NCBI GenBank assembly: GCA_023807065.1
Contig: JAJJLU010004567.1
Coordinates: 1-11,583, forward strand
From: Isotricha intestinalis
Lineage: Eukaryota; Ciliophora; Litostomatea; Vestibuliferida; Isotrichidae
Direction: 5' to 3'
DNA: 11,583 nt
The position numbers were made by a program, and so were the translations under genes. The notes under the pieces were generated by a model, which did not search any database, was not told where the DNA came from, and was given only the letters and a program-made list of their open reading frames with translations. The first letter of the stretch is position 1. Every line of letters starts with the position of its first letter. This document shows, in pieces, positions 1,496-11,583 of this stretch.

Positions 1496-3952
1496 TTATT
1501 TAGAATTTTCTTTAATAACATTAATAAACTTTTTCATATTTCTAATGTTATGTGGCATAACAGGAATCATATAAATTTTTTCTTCATTAATAACATAAAA
1601 TTTAAGTAAAAGTTTATTTTCAATTTTTTCAATTTGCTCTTTGCTTAAATTTTTAAAAACAAAAGTAAAATAATTGATTTTTTTACATATTGGTTTAAAC
1701 TCGATAAAATTATTTAATTCTTTTTTAATTAATTCAACAAAATCATTTTTCCCTTTCAAAAGAAAATCTACAAAATCTTTTTGTCCTTTTTCATTATAAT
1801 TATCAACATACCATTTTCCTAATAAAGCAGGAATTCCACTTCTAATTCCAATTAAAGTATCATCATTAAAAGGATAAATTTCATTATCTATTTCAATATA
1901 TTGTTGTAAATTTTTTCGACAAAGAAAAATTCCTATTGAATAAGGTAATTGACCAGTTTTATGAGCATCTAATCCAATAGTCAAAACATTTTCGTTTTCA
2001 AAAAAATATTTTTTATCATTTTCTATAAAAGGAATTATAAATCCTCCAAATGAAGCATCTATATGTATATATACTTTCTCTTTTAATTTTTCATTTATAT
2101 ATTTATTTATTTTTATTATTTTATCTATTGAACCTGATAAGGAAGAACCTATTGATAAAAATAGTATAATTTTATTATTTTCATTTTTTGCTATTATTTC
2201 CTCACATTTTTTTATTAATTCTTCATAATCAATTCTTTGTTTTTTATCAATATTTAAACAATAAGTATTTTCAATATTTAAAATATTACAAGCTTTAATA
2301 ATAGATTGATTAGATAGTTTAGAATAAATAACATGAATATCATTTAATTTTCCTCCTTTTTTAATAATCATATTTCTTAAAATCCAAATTCCCATTATAT
2401 TACTTTCATCACTTCCACTACAAATATAACCATCAATATCATTTTTAATATTTGTACTTGTTTTAAATAATTGTTTCCCTATCCAATATATATATTCTCT
2501 TTCTGCTTCTTGAGATTCTTCAAAACCTTCTAAATATTTTTTATCATTTCTTGTATGTGTTCCATAATTATTTAATTGCTTTGTATAATTTCTTGTTACT
2601 ATTTCCATATTCCTATTTGTTGTTATCATTCCCGGATATGAAAAAGGAGGAATATTTTTTTCATATGGTGATACTATTTTCTTATATATTGTTTTATCTT
2701 TAGCATAAAATAAATTAACAATATCATCATTAATTTCGCTTCTTTTTTTTTGATGATTTAAAATTAATTCAGTTAATTTTTCAATAAGAGCATTTTTAGT
2801 TTCTCCACAAGAAATTTCTCCTTTTTTAAATCCAGTTAAAATATTATTTAATTTGTCATCATCTAATTCAAAGAATTTTAAATATTGACAAGGAATATCT
2901 TTTTCAACATCTCCTCCGAATTTCTTATGATCCTCAAGGGTTCCATCACCACCTCCACCACTAAAAGCATATTTATTTATTTTATTTTTAATAGTTTTAG
3001 CATCATCAGTAAGAAAAACAGTAGTTTGTGAATTAACAGAACTACTCATTTTACCTTGATTAATACCAGCTAAAGGAGGAATAAATTTTCCCATAATAGA
3101 ACAAGGTAAAGGTAATTTAAGTTTTTTGGCAACATCTCTACCAAGTCTAAAATAAGGATCTTGATCAATTGCATAAGGAATTAAACATAATCCTTTCTTT
3201 CTAAATAAATGAGGATAAGCAGATGAAAATGAAGCTGCAATTTGATATGAAGGCCATGTTATCATTCCTATATTTGATTGATCTGTAAAGCCAAATATTT
3301 TTGTTAAAGTGTGAAATGACATTTTTTTATTTATTTCTGATACTAATTCTTCATATTCTGGTGTAGATAATCGATAATCTCTATTTGAAAAAATAAATGT
3401 TTTTAAAGGATTAAATCCTATTGCAATTATATCTTTCGTATTTTCATATCCTTGTTTGTAAATTTCTTTAAATTTATTATCTTTAAAATAAAATTTCTCA
3501 TCGTCAGAAATTTGAATTACTAAATAACAATCTAAAACATCTTGAAGCCATTTTGTAAATAAAAATGGTATTAAATGACCTATATGTAATGCATCTGATG
3601 TTTGTCCTCTTCCTGTATATAAAAAAAATTTTCACCTTTTTCATATGCATCTAAAATTAAATTCAAATCTTTGTGACAAAAAAAATAATCCTCTTTTTAT
3701 CCATGGATGAATTGGTTTTTTTGTCACTTTTTCAAATCTTTCTATTAATTTTTCATCTATTCTTTCTGCTCCAAATTGTTTTAAAAGTTTATCATAATCT
3801 ACTTCTCCTTTTACTTCCCAGGGATTCACTATTTGTTCTTCTTCTTTTTTCTCTTCTTTTTTTACTTCTTCTTCTTTTTTCTCTTCTTTTTTTACTTCTT
3901 CTTCTTTTTTCTCTTCTTTCTTCTCTTCTTTTTTTGAATCTGGAACCTCCAT
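1496..3952 (-). CDS. WARS: Tryptophanyl-tRNA synthetase fused to a PLP-dependent group II decarboxylase domain
   Basis: The protein is about 818 aa, starting at ATG 3952-3950. Order: a Lys/Glu-rich tail (about residues 6-40); the eukaryotic WARS entry region (VNPWEVKGEVDYDKLLKQFG); the class I HIGH-type motif LHIGHLIP (about 3573-3596); IFGFTDQSNIG; AIDQDPYF; the KMSSS loop at 3052-3038; and the FGG/LIEKL anticodon-domain end. After about ten linker residues a decarboxylase of the histidine/serine/aromatic family begins (about 2680-1496): NNYGTHTR, SGSDESN for the cofactor phosphate, IHIDASFGGF with the Asp for the pyridine nitrogen, DAHKTG with the Schiff-base Lys at 1960-1958, then IGIRSG and the MPH end. 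The synthetase charges tRNA-Trp in the cytosol; the second domain's substrate is unknown. Its usual ring-stacking His is Asn (2311-2309). Two T8 runs (3678-3685, one base long; 3621-3628, one short) break the N-terminal frame; the last 608 codons are intact across both domains. It ends at TAA 1498-1496; a TGA follows four codons later. Confidence 0.9.
3841..3930 (-). repeat. 30-bp tandem repeat encoding a Lys/Glu decapeptide
   Basis: Bases 3841-3870 and 3871-3900 are identical, and 3901-3930 is a diverged third copy. On the coding strand each unit gives KKEEKKEEEV or a close variant. It forms the charged N-terminal tail of the synthetase fusion, in the place where many animal WARS proteins carry a WHEP domain. 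Such repeats expand and contract easily, so copy number may vary between alleles. Confidence 0.85.
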
Positions 3953-4075: not shown

Positions 4076-5537
4076 ATGTATTACATATCCTGCAAATTAC
4101 TTAAATTACGTTCAAAATTTAGCAAGTTCAACAATAATAAAATTTGATCAAATAGCACCTAATAAAGTAGATGATCTTCAAAGAACACATAATTTTCCTC
4201 CAGAAACAGTAAATAAATTCAAAGCTATAAAATATTGTAAAAATGAAATTACGTTTGAAGAATTTAAATTTGATAAAGATGTTGGTACTTCAAAATTAGA
4301 AAATGTTTTTGGTGTTGTTACAAGATTAGATGAACAATTCGTTTTTTTTTTATGTAAAAGGACAAGCTACTGGAAAAGCTGTTGTTCAATATAATTCTGT
4401 TCCTTATAGAAGTTGCTAGAGATATTAAAAGTTGTAAAACTAAACATAGAAAAGTTAAAAGAGGATTGGATTTAATGAAAATGAAATTATTAGAAAATCT
4501 TTAGTTGCTAAATTTTATGAAACTTTAAATACTATTCTTGATTTAGATCAACAGAAAATGATTGATAAATTTAAAAGATTAGCTTCAATGAAAAGAACAT
4601 CTTTTCCAGCATATTATAAAAAATATGTAGTGACAGTGAAAACATATTTAGATTTTAAAACAGTATCATTGTATTCAATAAATGCAATTCAAAATTTAAA
4701 AAATAGTGGATTTAATGATAAAACAATAAACAGTATAAAAAATATATTTGGAAAGCCAAATAATTTAGTTGATATATATCAAATAACAAAACATGAAATA
4801 GACGAATTAAGATTAAAAATGGGAGTTGCATATTCTGTTGGTGGAAGAGTTCTTCTTTCTTATGATGATGCTATTAGTGAATCTAAAAGATATGAACAAT
4901 ATTGTAATATGGAAGCAAATTCATCTGAAGAAACTTGTCTTGATGATTCTGTATGTGTTGATGAATGTAATACATATAAAAAACATGTTATGAGATTCCT
5001 TGAAAATTAGTATCACCTAATCCTTAAGATGAAGAAAGAAAATTTATGGTATCATTTTATTTAAGAGACTTTGAAGTCCAAGTATATGAATTAACAATGA
5101 GAAATAATGGAAGAGTGACAGGAAAATTTATAGAAAAACTAAAAATAAAAAATCCATATATAAATTAATATTATCAAAAAAAAAGATTTTGTAATGGGAA
5201 ATAATTTTTATATAAATAAATATATATTAAGATTATTAGAAAGTAATGATATACAAGAAAATATATGAGAGACAATCCAGAAGTATTCAAAGATTCTGAT
5301 ATGAACTTTATATATGATAGAATTCATGCTGTTGTTCAAAAACAAATTAATTTCTTGATAAATGTTGGCTACCATTGATCCTATGGGAACCAATTGGACA
5401 AATTCTGATGCTATTGAATTAGGATTTAAAACTCTTGGTGTCACTTTATCACCATTACAAGTTTTCATTATTTGCAAATTTTAAGAAGGGATGGTATGAA
5501 TAATTCTATGGAAGATTTGTTTAATTTAATAAAATAA
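4076..5537 (+). CDS. DM10-domain protein, EFHC/RIB72-like axonemal component
   Basis: Stitched across frames this encodes about 485 aa. The decisive part is a DM10 domain at about 5034-5290: RKFMVSFYLRDFEVQVYELT, then RNNGRVTGKFIEKLKIKNP, DFVMGNNFYINKYILRLLES and KYMRDNPEVF. These match the DM10 repeats of EFHC1/EFHC2 and ciliate/algal RIB72, proteins bound inside doublet microtubules of cilia. The N-terminal 310 residues are not recognised; they include an intact 150-codon stretch (4558-5010) with a short Cys-rich insert (ETCLDDSVCVDEC). The tail ends NSMEDLFNLIK at TAA 5535-5537; it sits where EFHC proteins have an EF-hand, but I see no calcium loop. Frame changes occur near the start, at the T run 4340-4348, and near 4412, 4476, 5005, 5178, 5258, 5367, 5464 and 5483. 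In-frame TAA at 5025-5027 and 5166-5168 lie inside or beside the domain. Confidence 0.7.
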
Positions 5538-7275: not shown

Positions 7276-7374
7276 CTCAAAAGGCTCATAATATTAAACA
7301 ATAAATATGAAATTTTATTTCATATAATGTAAAAGAAATTTCATATTTATTGTTTTATATTATGAGCCTTTGAG
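7276..7374. repeat. Long near-perfect inverted repeat (hairpin)
   Basis: The left arm 7276-7313 and right arm 7338-7374 are reverse complements over 37 positions with one mismatch and one bulged base, around a 24-base A/T loop. The arms start CTCAAAAGGCTCATAATAT and contain more G/C than the surroundings. GGACT at 7259-7263 and AGTCC at 7372-7376 add a second, displaced inverted match. It begins 25 bases beyond the stop of the - strand gene at 7399, so it probably lies in that gene's 3' untranslated region. It may be a MITE-like or other foldback element, or an RNA stem-loop; no clear target-site duplication is visible. Confidence 0.85.
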
Positions 7375-8739: not shown

Positions 8740-8817
8740 TTTTTATTAAATGTTAAATCTTTTTTATTCAAAAATTATTAAATAAATTTAATTTAATTAA
8801 ATAAATAAAATAATTAA

Positions 8818-11583
8818 ATGGAACTTTGTGCAGATGTCAAGTAAAAATATCAGATTTCAAATGTGAAGATTGTAATAAATCTTTTTGTGTTGGATGTGAT
8901 TCATATTTACATTCTCTTGCTATATTTTTAGGACATAAAAAAATATTGATTCAAAATAATAAAATTGAGCCTTATTGTCAAAATAATAATTTTAATTATA
9001 CTAATGATAAAACTATTGTAAATAATAATATTAATGAAAAGGATTTAAATAAAGAAAGTAATATTAATGATAATGAAAATAATTGCCCTGAAATTAATGG
9101 AGTTAGTAAAAATTTAATTATTCAATTAAGAGAAAATTATGAAAAAGAAAATAAAAGAATTAACTGAAGAATTATAAAACAATTATTAAATAAAAGAAAT
9201 ATAAATTTAAATGATGATAATAATAATAATATAAATAATATTAATTATAATAATTATGATAATAATAACCAAATTCAAAATGATATTAATGAAATCAATA
9301 ATAATTTTGATAAAAATGAAAAATTAAAAACAATAATTTCAGATAAAGATACTCAAATAGAATATTTAATAGAACAATTAAATAATCAAAAAGAAATAAA
9401 TTGTCAATTAAATCAAAAAATAAGAAATTATGAAAGTTGAGTTGCCTCAACAAACGAAGAACGCTGTAATAAAATAATTAATTTAAATTGTTTATTAGAT
9501 AATTTATGTATTGAAAAAAATCAATGGAAGAATTTTATAAAAATAAAATGGAAGATATATATCAAATGTATGAATGTGAAAAACAAAAAATAATATGTGA
9601 TTATGAATGTCAAATAAATCAATTAAATAATTTGTTTGAAAATATTGAAAGTGATAATAATAAAAAAGTTGAAAATGAAAATGAGTAAATAAATAAAAAT
9701 GAAGAAGAAGAAAAACAAAATAATGAAATAGATGAAAAAAAACAAATAAATTTGATAATGGTGAAATAAATAATGAAAATGAAGATAATAAAAATGAAAT
9801 TGATGAAGAAAATTATGAAAATAATGAAGAATATAAATTTGAAAATAATAATGAAATTCAAAATAATAATAATGAAGATAAAAATGATGATGATTATGAA
9901 AAAGATTTTGAAGTTTATAATGATTATTGAAGATAATAAAGATGAAAATATTAAAGAAAATATTCAAGATAATAATAAAGAAGAAAAATATGAAGATTTT
10001 GAAGATAATAAAAAAGAAGAAAACAATGAAGAAAATATTAAAGATAATAATGAAGAAAAAAAAAATGAAGATTGTATAGTTATTAAAAATAAAGAAAATA
10101 GTGAAGAAAATGAAGAATATAATGACTTTAATAAAGAAAATGAAGAGAAAAAAAATGAAGATTTAAAAAAAGAAGAAAAGAAAGAATAACAAAATAATAA
10201 AGATGATTCAGAGAAAAAAAATATAAAAACAAATTTAATTAAATAAAAAAATCAAATTATAATAATAATAAATTAAGATTATCAGCAAAAAAAAAAATAA
10301 AAATTTTGGAAATTTTGAAATTGCATAACAGAATTTTCAAAAAATTCATTCAATTATAAATGAAATATTAACAAATCAAAATAAATCTTCTGCAATATTA
10401 ATAAAAGAAAATAAAAAAATACAAAATTTATTATTAAATTTAAATAATATTGTATCATTAATGACAAAGAATATAAAAATATCTCAATCAAAATATAAAA
10501 CATTAAATAAAGAAAAAACAGATTTAAATCAAAATAATGAAAAAATTATAAATAGATATAAAAACGAATATGAAATATTAAATAAACGATATCAGAGATT
10601 AAAAGATGAAAATTATATTAATAATTTAGAAAAAAAGAAAGAAAAAATTATAAAAGATTTAAATTATTTTCAAAGAGAAATTAAAGATTTGCAAAAAGCT
10701 CAAAAAATGAAATCAATAATTATGTCAAAGGAAATAAAAAATTCTAAAACACAATTAATAAAAACTCAAAGAGTTGAAACAGAATATAAAAATTTAAAAC
10801 TTAAATATACTAATTAATGTAATCAAAGAAAAAATGAACAAACTAAAAAAGATAATGAAGCAAAATTAGAAGAATTAAAACAATTTAAAAATAAAATAGA
10901 AGAAATGGGAAAAGAAATGTATGATATAAAAGAATTTATAAAATGAATCAAATCAAATAGAGAAAAATAAAGTAATAATAAAAAATAATTAAGAAATTAA
11001 ATATTATTGATGGTGCTTTTAATATTCATAAAAATAAATATGAAAAAGAAATTGCAATAAGAGAAAAGAAAATTTTTGAAAAAGAAAAAGAGAAATTAAA
11101 ATTATTAAAAGAAATGAGATATGAAACTATTAGAAATGAAAAATTACTTGGTAAAATTAAAGAATTATATGAACCAATTGAACATTTAAATAATGAAAAT
11201 GAAGAAAATATGACTCAAAATGAAAATGGAATATTTTTGAACTTGTAAAAAAAGAAAAAGAAAAAGAAGAATTATTAAAAGAAAAAACCTTATTAAAAAA
11301 AGAATTAGATTATTTAATAAATGAAAAAATGAATAAAAAAAAGAATATTGAAGATGAAAATAATAAAATTGAAATTGATGATGAAAATAAAGATGAAAAA
11401 CAAATAAAAAAAGAAGACAATAAAGAAAATATTATAAATAATACATCAAAATCAACTTCAAGGAAACCAGATTTAAATTTTGGAAAAGTTAATCCAAAAA
11501 AAGATGAATTTAGCAAATCAAAAAATTGAAGAATTAAGTAAAAAAGATATAGAAAAATTTAATATTGAAATTGATAATAAATT
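8818..11583 (+). CDS. B-box zinc-finger coiled-coil protein, 3' end outside the window
   Basis: This is at least about 920 residues, open at the window end. From ATG 8818-8820, one base missing near 8831 restores a B-box finger in residues 4-40: C-x2-C-x8-C-x2-C-x4-C-x2-C-x4-H-x7-H, including FKCEDCNKSFCVGCDSYLH and GHKK. B-boxes are small zinc folds for protein contacts. Then come an Asn-rich linker, a coiled coil (about 9290-9650), a very acidic Glu/Lys/Asn low-complexity stretch (about 9650-10250), and a second long coiled coil (about 10330-11320) including the intact stretch 10461-10814. The overall form suggests a scaffold or cytoskeletal protein; no RING or other domain is seen. Frame changes lie at about 9514, 9745, 9927, 10250, 10290, 10985, 11235 and 11512, mostly in A or T runs. 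In-frame TAA: 9686, 10187, 10244, 10326, 10815, 10968. In-frame TGA: 9165, 9438, 10944. Confidence 0.7.

Follow-up and report, generated by a model that had tools for sequence, protein, structure and literature searches.

A tryptophanyl-tRNA synthetase fused to a PLP-decarboxylase-fold domain, encoded by two paralogous genes of a probable rumen ciliate

The DNA analysed here, a stretch of 11,583 nucleotides referred to as the window, carries on its minus strand a gene in which a tryptophanyl-tRNA synthetase (TrpRS) is joined to a PLP-decarboxylase-fold domain. This gene is termed paralogue B; contig C290 of the same genome carries another such fusion gene, termed paralogue A. The window gene comprises the following features:

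1496..3952, minus strand: whole fusion gene (paralogue B), from the ATG at 3952 to the TAA at 1496; a frame of 819 codons, stop codon counted, that two TGA interrupt
3641..3952, minus strand: N-terminal part up to the first internal TGA, consisting of a charged repetitive tail and the start of TrpRS
3621..3685, minus strand: stretch shifted in frame against paralogue A, between two 8-T runs and containing both TGA
2690..3631, minus strand: catalytic part of TrpRS in an open frame with HIGH and KMSSS, defined by profile, match to a solved chain and motifs
2645..2689, minus strand: join, about 15 residues from the end of the TrpRS match to FSYPGM, colinear in C290 and homologues
1499..2644, minus strand: PLP-decarboxylase-fold domain, defined by PF00282 and motif alignment, its fold predicted for paralogue A
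2627..2644, minus strand: FSYPGM motif of the PLP domain
2291..2314, minus strand: SNQSIIKA in the PLP domain, where Asn replaces the catalytic His
within 2042..2065, minus strand: HIDAS motif of the PLP domain
within 1952..1972, minus strand: DAHK motif of the PLP domain
1859..1885, minus strand: altered loop NEIYPFNDD of the PLP domain

The open frame of the window gene comprises 711 codons (1499-3631, minus strand) and spans the join, which is located between about 2690 and 2644. As originally predicted, the join itself needs no frame correction. Two internal TGA (3641-3643 and 3632-3634) interrupt the gene further upstream, and approximately 60 nt between two 8-T runs (3678-3685 and 3621-3628) are out of frame in comparison to paralogue A. 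Base errors of the contig are the likeliest cause of this frame break, since it sits between two homopolymer runs, a position typical of such errors, and the neighbour gene at 4077-5480 is split among frames as well. An intron is not favoured, because two differences in T-run length explain the break. A reading of TGA as tryptophan is likewise not favoured, because five other genes (the fusion gene on C290, both tubulin genes, the TyrRS gene and a sphingosine-phosphate-lyase-like gene) use TGG for tryptophan in open frames free of TGA, with two TGG in the lyase-like gene and 3-8 in each of the others. A real defect is less likely, although the protein P0023, which is near-identical to the window copy and stems from another assembly, also starts at the downstream ATG. 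P0019, an orthologue from a related but more distant sequence, has an intact frame of 821 residues. The telomere repeat CCCCAAT was not found within the window.

The TrpRS half was recognised by PF00579 (2.3e-17) and by the eukaryote-type TrpRS profile TIGR00233, on which the protein encoded by 1499-3619 scored 240.3 bits and that of C290 247.5 bits (cut-off 176.75). The class I motifs HIGH (3575-3586) and KMSSS (3038-3052) are present in the window gene as well as in C290 and P0019. The two motifs of the complete synthetase claimed by the original prediction were found, whereas the gene, with two TGA near its N-terminus, is not intact. The claim that the complete synthetase lies within 608 uninterrupted codons did not hold: this open reading frame begins at 3322, downstream of HIGH, and reaches only 158.0 bits on TIGR00233 by itself. 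Solved TrpRS chains match the window protein with values down to 1.6e-89. The match to one of them, 5uji, stops at query residue 310 of the 1499-3619 translation, about 15 residues ahead of FSYPGM, so that the join has no long linker. A PF00579 profile search of the genome hit three places: both fused genes and C1037. The latter encodes a TyrRS (341.1 bits on the TyrRS model, cut-off 220). Judged by these profile matches, no TrpRS other than the two fused ones was detected in the assembly, which is possibly incomplete and of which only the best candidates were scored.

The C-terminal half shows the group II PLP-decarboxylase fold according to PF00282 (3.7e-10, 39.5 bits, cut-off 27; 53.2 bits for C290). 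Together with the TIGR00233 score this bears out the predicted fusion of a eukaryotic-type TrpRS to a group II PLP decarboxylase. The PLP-binding lysine (K645), the PLP-binding aspartate (D612) and the catalytic histidine (H529) are all conserved in paralogue A. In an alignment of 28 fused sequences the PLP Lys and the PLP Asp are each present in all 27 readable rows, including the window copy. The catalytic His is found in 25 of the 28 fused and in all 20 bacterial rows. The three fused exceptions, all with Asn, are the window copy, P0023 and P0019. Because tree and motifs agree, P0019 was assigned to paralogue B, i.e. it is by its sequence the same paralogue as the window copy. The same three rows have Glu instead of the loop Tyr, which is conserved in the other 22 of 22 readable fused rows; among bacterial rows Tyr was counted in 8/20, in a column where the alignment is ambiguous. 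Hence, the standard decarboxylase motifs expected for the window gene are only partly retained: HIDAS and DAHK are there, whereas the catalytic His and the loop Tyr are replaced.

Thirty-eight positions are invariant over 40 rows consisting of A-type fused and 20 bacterial sequences (13 of 53 rows, B-type or incomplete, were excluded). At three of these 38 positions the window copy differs (H529N, S684I, G701N; C290 numbering), and P0019 also differs at three (H529N, D642E, S684T). The B pair is 86.7% identical in the TrpRS domain and 75.8% in the PLP domain, and A pairs show 88.4/71.7% and 83.7/69.0%. Divergence of this similar extent speaks against a decaying B domain.

An AF2 model of the PLP domain of paralogue A (pLDDT 90.9) gave alanine/serine decarboxylase and MfnA as top folds. 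Its best matches include serine/alanine, tyrosine, glutamate and histidine decarboxylases within about 2 Z units, and none of the fold matches was Trp-specific. No NCBIfam decarboxylase cut-off was reached by the PLP part (for C290 HDC 151.7 vs. 305 and MfnA 141.1 vs. 299.4), and therefore no substrate can be read from the sequence.

The fusion of TrpRS to a PLP decarboxylase is real and well supported beyond the window. A search of the genome (57.3 Mb, 2153 contigs) revealed the paralogue on C290, which encodes 801 amino acids without interruption and is 65% identical to the window copy. The architecture also occurs in relatives: when the C290 protein was used for a protein search, 25 of the 120 homologues listed contained both Pfam domains. 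These 25 span 47 to 100% identity, and 19 of them are 775-821 residues long. The uninterrupted C290 gene and the recurrence of the architecture among the listed homologues argue that the fusion is due neither to chance nor to misassembly. PF00282 was found at four places of the genome, the two fusions and two further genes on C1260 and C1957, which we read as sphingosine-phosphate-lyase-like, a name of our own. In line with the original prediction, no description of a TrpRS-decarboxylase fusion was found among the papers listed from the open-access literature, to which the search was confined.

The SSU rRNA gene of the assembly (1642 nt) matches P-SSU-316F, PSSU539R and Reg1302R exactly and RP841F with one mismatch; these are primers for rumen ciliates (PMC5320624, PMC7058926). 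SSU rRNA and primer matches point to a rumen ciliate as the source. The fusion genes have a GC content of 22-24% (7-9% at third positions), and the values read from a table for Entodinium caudatum are 23.5% GC and 13.3% GC3 (PMC10384029). The beta-tubulin of the assembly matches PDB 6u0h best. We take this to be a Tetrahymena entry. The alpha- and beta-tubulin genes are arranged head to head on C1640 (L033 634-3489), and C1974 and C1462 carry two divergent tubulin matches with the same spacing.

In a tree of 67 PLP domains, calculated by a quick method only and containing several long branches, 22 rows labelled as fused formed one clade (SH-aLRT 99), counting P0121 and P0125, partial sequences in which not both Pfam domains are present. 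Its sister group (99) consists of four bacterial rows, of which two are from Uhrbacteria, one is from Parcubacteria and one from an unnamed bacterium. The nearest unfused PLP proteins are otherwise bacterial-looking, and several of them are named from Bacteroidota. These relationships are most simply explained if the PLP domain was acquired from bacteria and then fused. A scan of viral contigs with the C290 protein for a giant-virus source, which reaches close relatives only, gave nine pattern matches, none of which was confirmed. P0128 and P0129, in which a MerR-type HTH precedes a PLP decarboxylase domain closely related to those of the fused proteins, may be regulators of another kind.

The unfused P0235-P0237 branch among the fused rows in the TrpRS tree, and a topology that groups the fused rows to their exclusion was rejected (p-AU 0.00018). 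Fused and unfused TrpRS rows as one clade were not rejected (p-AU 0.285), and the tree is compatible with a position of the P0058 group either inside or outside the fused clade. The unfused P0235, P0236, P0237 and P0238 are 77-84% identical to fused proteins. The join is precisely where P0235 and P0237 end, and P0236 extends nine residues beyond it. P0235 may be chimeric, because it shares an identical C-terminal stretch with P0237. As unfused TrpRS (P0235-P0238) nest within the fused clade, it seems that a fusion can be undone, which hints either that some lineages shed the PLP half later or that the predictions are truncated.

A group of eukaryote-type TrpRS (P0058, P0072, P0078, P0085, P0090, P0116, P0120) has a signal-peptide-like N-terminus and is encoded on contigs of up to 486 kb; P0067 is related to this group and has no such N-terminus. 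P0058, P0067, P0072, P0078, P0085 and P0090 adjoin the ciliate TrpRS in the tree. The proteins of the P0058 group may belong to bacterial symbionts that export a TrpRS derived from their host.

Synthetase fusions to amino-acid enzymes seem to be rare. A PLP aminotransferase is appended to the MetRS of Mycoplasma penetrans, where it was shown to feed methionine to the synthetase, and its authors describe it as the first known aminoacyl-tRNA synthetase with aminotransferase activity (PMC7694997). Both systems unite a synthetase and a PLP-dependent amino-acid enzyme in one chain. In M. penetrans this is MetRS with an N-terminal aminotransferase, present in one bacterium and with its activity shown, whereas the ciliate fusion is a TrpRS with a C-terminal decarboxylase fold, occurs in many sequences, is duplicated and is known from sequence. 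TrpRS itself has another partner: the indoleamine dioxygenase domain IDO (PF01231) precedes TrpRS in P0038, P0044, P0079, P0082 and P0257, and the domains were confirmed. Four such proteins are among the 120 homologues listed, and one more is among the 120 of another listing. P0044, P0079 and P0082 also carry a C-terminal tRNA-editing domain, and P0038 is named Harvfovirus. Like the ciliate protein these fusions join a eukaryote-type TrpRS to an enzyme, here of a family that consumes tryptophan, but the haem dioxygenase is N-terminal and the PLP domain is missing. No description of an IDO-TrpRS fusion was found in the open-access literature, and among the papers listed there on tryptophan metabolism none named rumen protozoa. 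The decarboxylase and IDO fusions together suggest that TrpRS gained amino-acid-consuming partners more than once.

The PLP domains of the fusion have the fold, the PLP Lys and the PLP Asp in common with alanine/serine decarboxylase (8jij, 8jg7), MfnA (3f9t) and bacterial HDC (7erv), and paralogue A also has their catalytic His. These enzymes are not fused to a synthetase, and the window copy differs from them in that Asn replaces His and Glu replaces the loop Tyr. His or Asn at the position of His192 distinguishes insect DOPA decarboxylase from aldehyde synthase, with Asn shifting the balance from decarboxylation towards aldehyde synthesis (PMC6494836, PMC6411801). For insect DHPAAS 95% aldehyde-synthase activity is given for the wild type and 22% for Asn192His (PMC6494836), and H192N lowered dopamine formation about 11-fold (PMC6411801). 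The window copy resembles DHPAAS as described there (PMC6494836) in having Asn where decarboxylases have His. Plant aldehyde synthases vary at the loop Tyr/Phe position (PMC6411801); the plant-type change of Tyr to Phe is absent from the window copy, which has Glu. The serine-decarboxylase-like plant enzymes MtAAS/CaAAS convert tryptophan to indole-3-acetaldehyde, with a strong preference for phenylalanine (PMC4177580). Unlike the ciliate protein, DHPAAS and MtAAS/CaAAS are not fused to a synthetase, and they use O2.

With moderate confidence we favour a bifunctional TrpRS with a tethered decarboxylase of bacterial origin, which plausibly acts on tryptophan, and a window paralogue that is altered or regulatory; activities, substrate and the reason for tethering are what we infer from sequence, predicted fold and comparison. 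The family would represent cytosolic tryptophanyl-tRNA synthetases of rumen ciliates, to the C-terminus of which a bacterial PLP-dependent amino-acid decarboxylase was presumably fused in frame. The TrpRS half would charge tRNA-Trp. In the predicted protein of paralogue A every catalytic residue checked is kept, as a decarboxylase needs, and its PLP half most likely decarboxylates an amino acid beside the site of tryptophan use. By analogy tryptophan is proposed as this substrate, since the partner enzyme handles tryptophan and IDO is joined to TrpRS in other proteins; the MetRS of M. penetrans offers a tested precedent, its PLP enzyme working on the amino acid of the synthetase. Conversion of tryptophan to tryptamine would be the likeliest single reaction. 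In paralogue B the chemistry is probably changed or lost, because Asn has replaced the proton-donating His, and Glu the loop Tyr. Its PLP half has probably either turned to decarboxylation-dependent oxidative deamination, as in aldehyde synthases, or ended up with weak activity or a regulatory function. Since aldehyde synthases use O2, which is scarce in the rumen, regulation or inactivity is as likely as aldehyde synthesis. A conserved TrpRS-decarboxylase that is the only TrpRS found here would tie translation to the production of an amine or aldehyde. A more specific version, to which we give a low probability, is a tryptophan valve within TrpRS, in which A would make tryptamine and B would make indole-3-acetaldehyde or sense tryptophan without turnover. 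If true, such a valve would set translation against tryptophan disposal within one protein.

Alternatively, the tethering may be neutral, so that two active enzymes are carried on one chain without coupling and the decarboxylase acts on serine, alanine, tyrosine or another amino acid than tryptophan. The nearest solved folds, alanine/serine decarboxylase and MfnA, are consistent with this, and the unfused TrpRS nested in the fused clade suggest that the link is dispensable. Nevertheless, the fusion is kept down to 47% identity among the homologues listed, and TrpRS was separately fused to IDO elsewhere. We regard neutral tethering as possible, though doubtful.

Somewhat less probable is a pseudogene status of the window copy, which would leave paralogue A as the sole functional gene. 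The two internal TGA, the replacement of His, Tyr and Ser residues in the active site of the PLP domain and the downstream start of P0023 would fit such a view, as would the neighbour gene at 4077-5480, which is also broken into frames. On the other hand, 711 codons are still open, the break between homopolymer runs looks like base error, P0019 is intact with the same key changes, and the domains of the B pair diverged like those of A pairs.

Also compared to a bifunctional TrpRS with a plausibly tryptophan-acting decarboxylase, a role in quality control is improbable. The PLP half would then destroy a near-cognate amino acid beside TrpRS, similar in purpose to the tRNA-editing domain PF04073, which is frequent at the C-terminus of the TrpRS homologues listed and was confirmed in P0031, P0044, P0050, P0079, P0082 and P0098. 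There is no sign of a near-cognate substrate, and to our knowledge all solved relatives of the PLP domain are decarboxylases acting on free amino acids. An assembly chimera of two separate genes was ruled out for practical purposes, as C290 and many other contigs have the same join, even though the contig shows signs of base-level error.

Some further features of the window were recorded. The neighbour gene (4077-5480, plus strand) is split among frames; its family is represented by 13 matches in the genome. A paralogue on C1274 is 79% identical over the searched piece and lies in an open frame of 407 codons, and the piece 5028-5165 matches a DM10 domain. A long coding-like frame at 8814-9590 (plus strand) contains internal TGA at 9165-9167 and 9438-9440, after each of which the same frame resumes; base errors, decay or readthrough may account for them. 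An inverted repeat at 7280-7371 has arms of 41 nt, 93% complementary, with a spacing of 10 nt.
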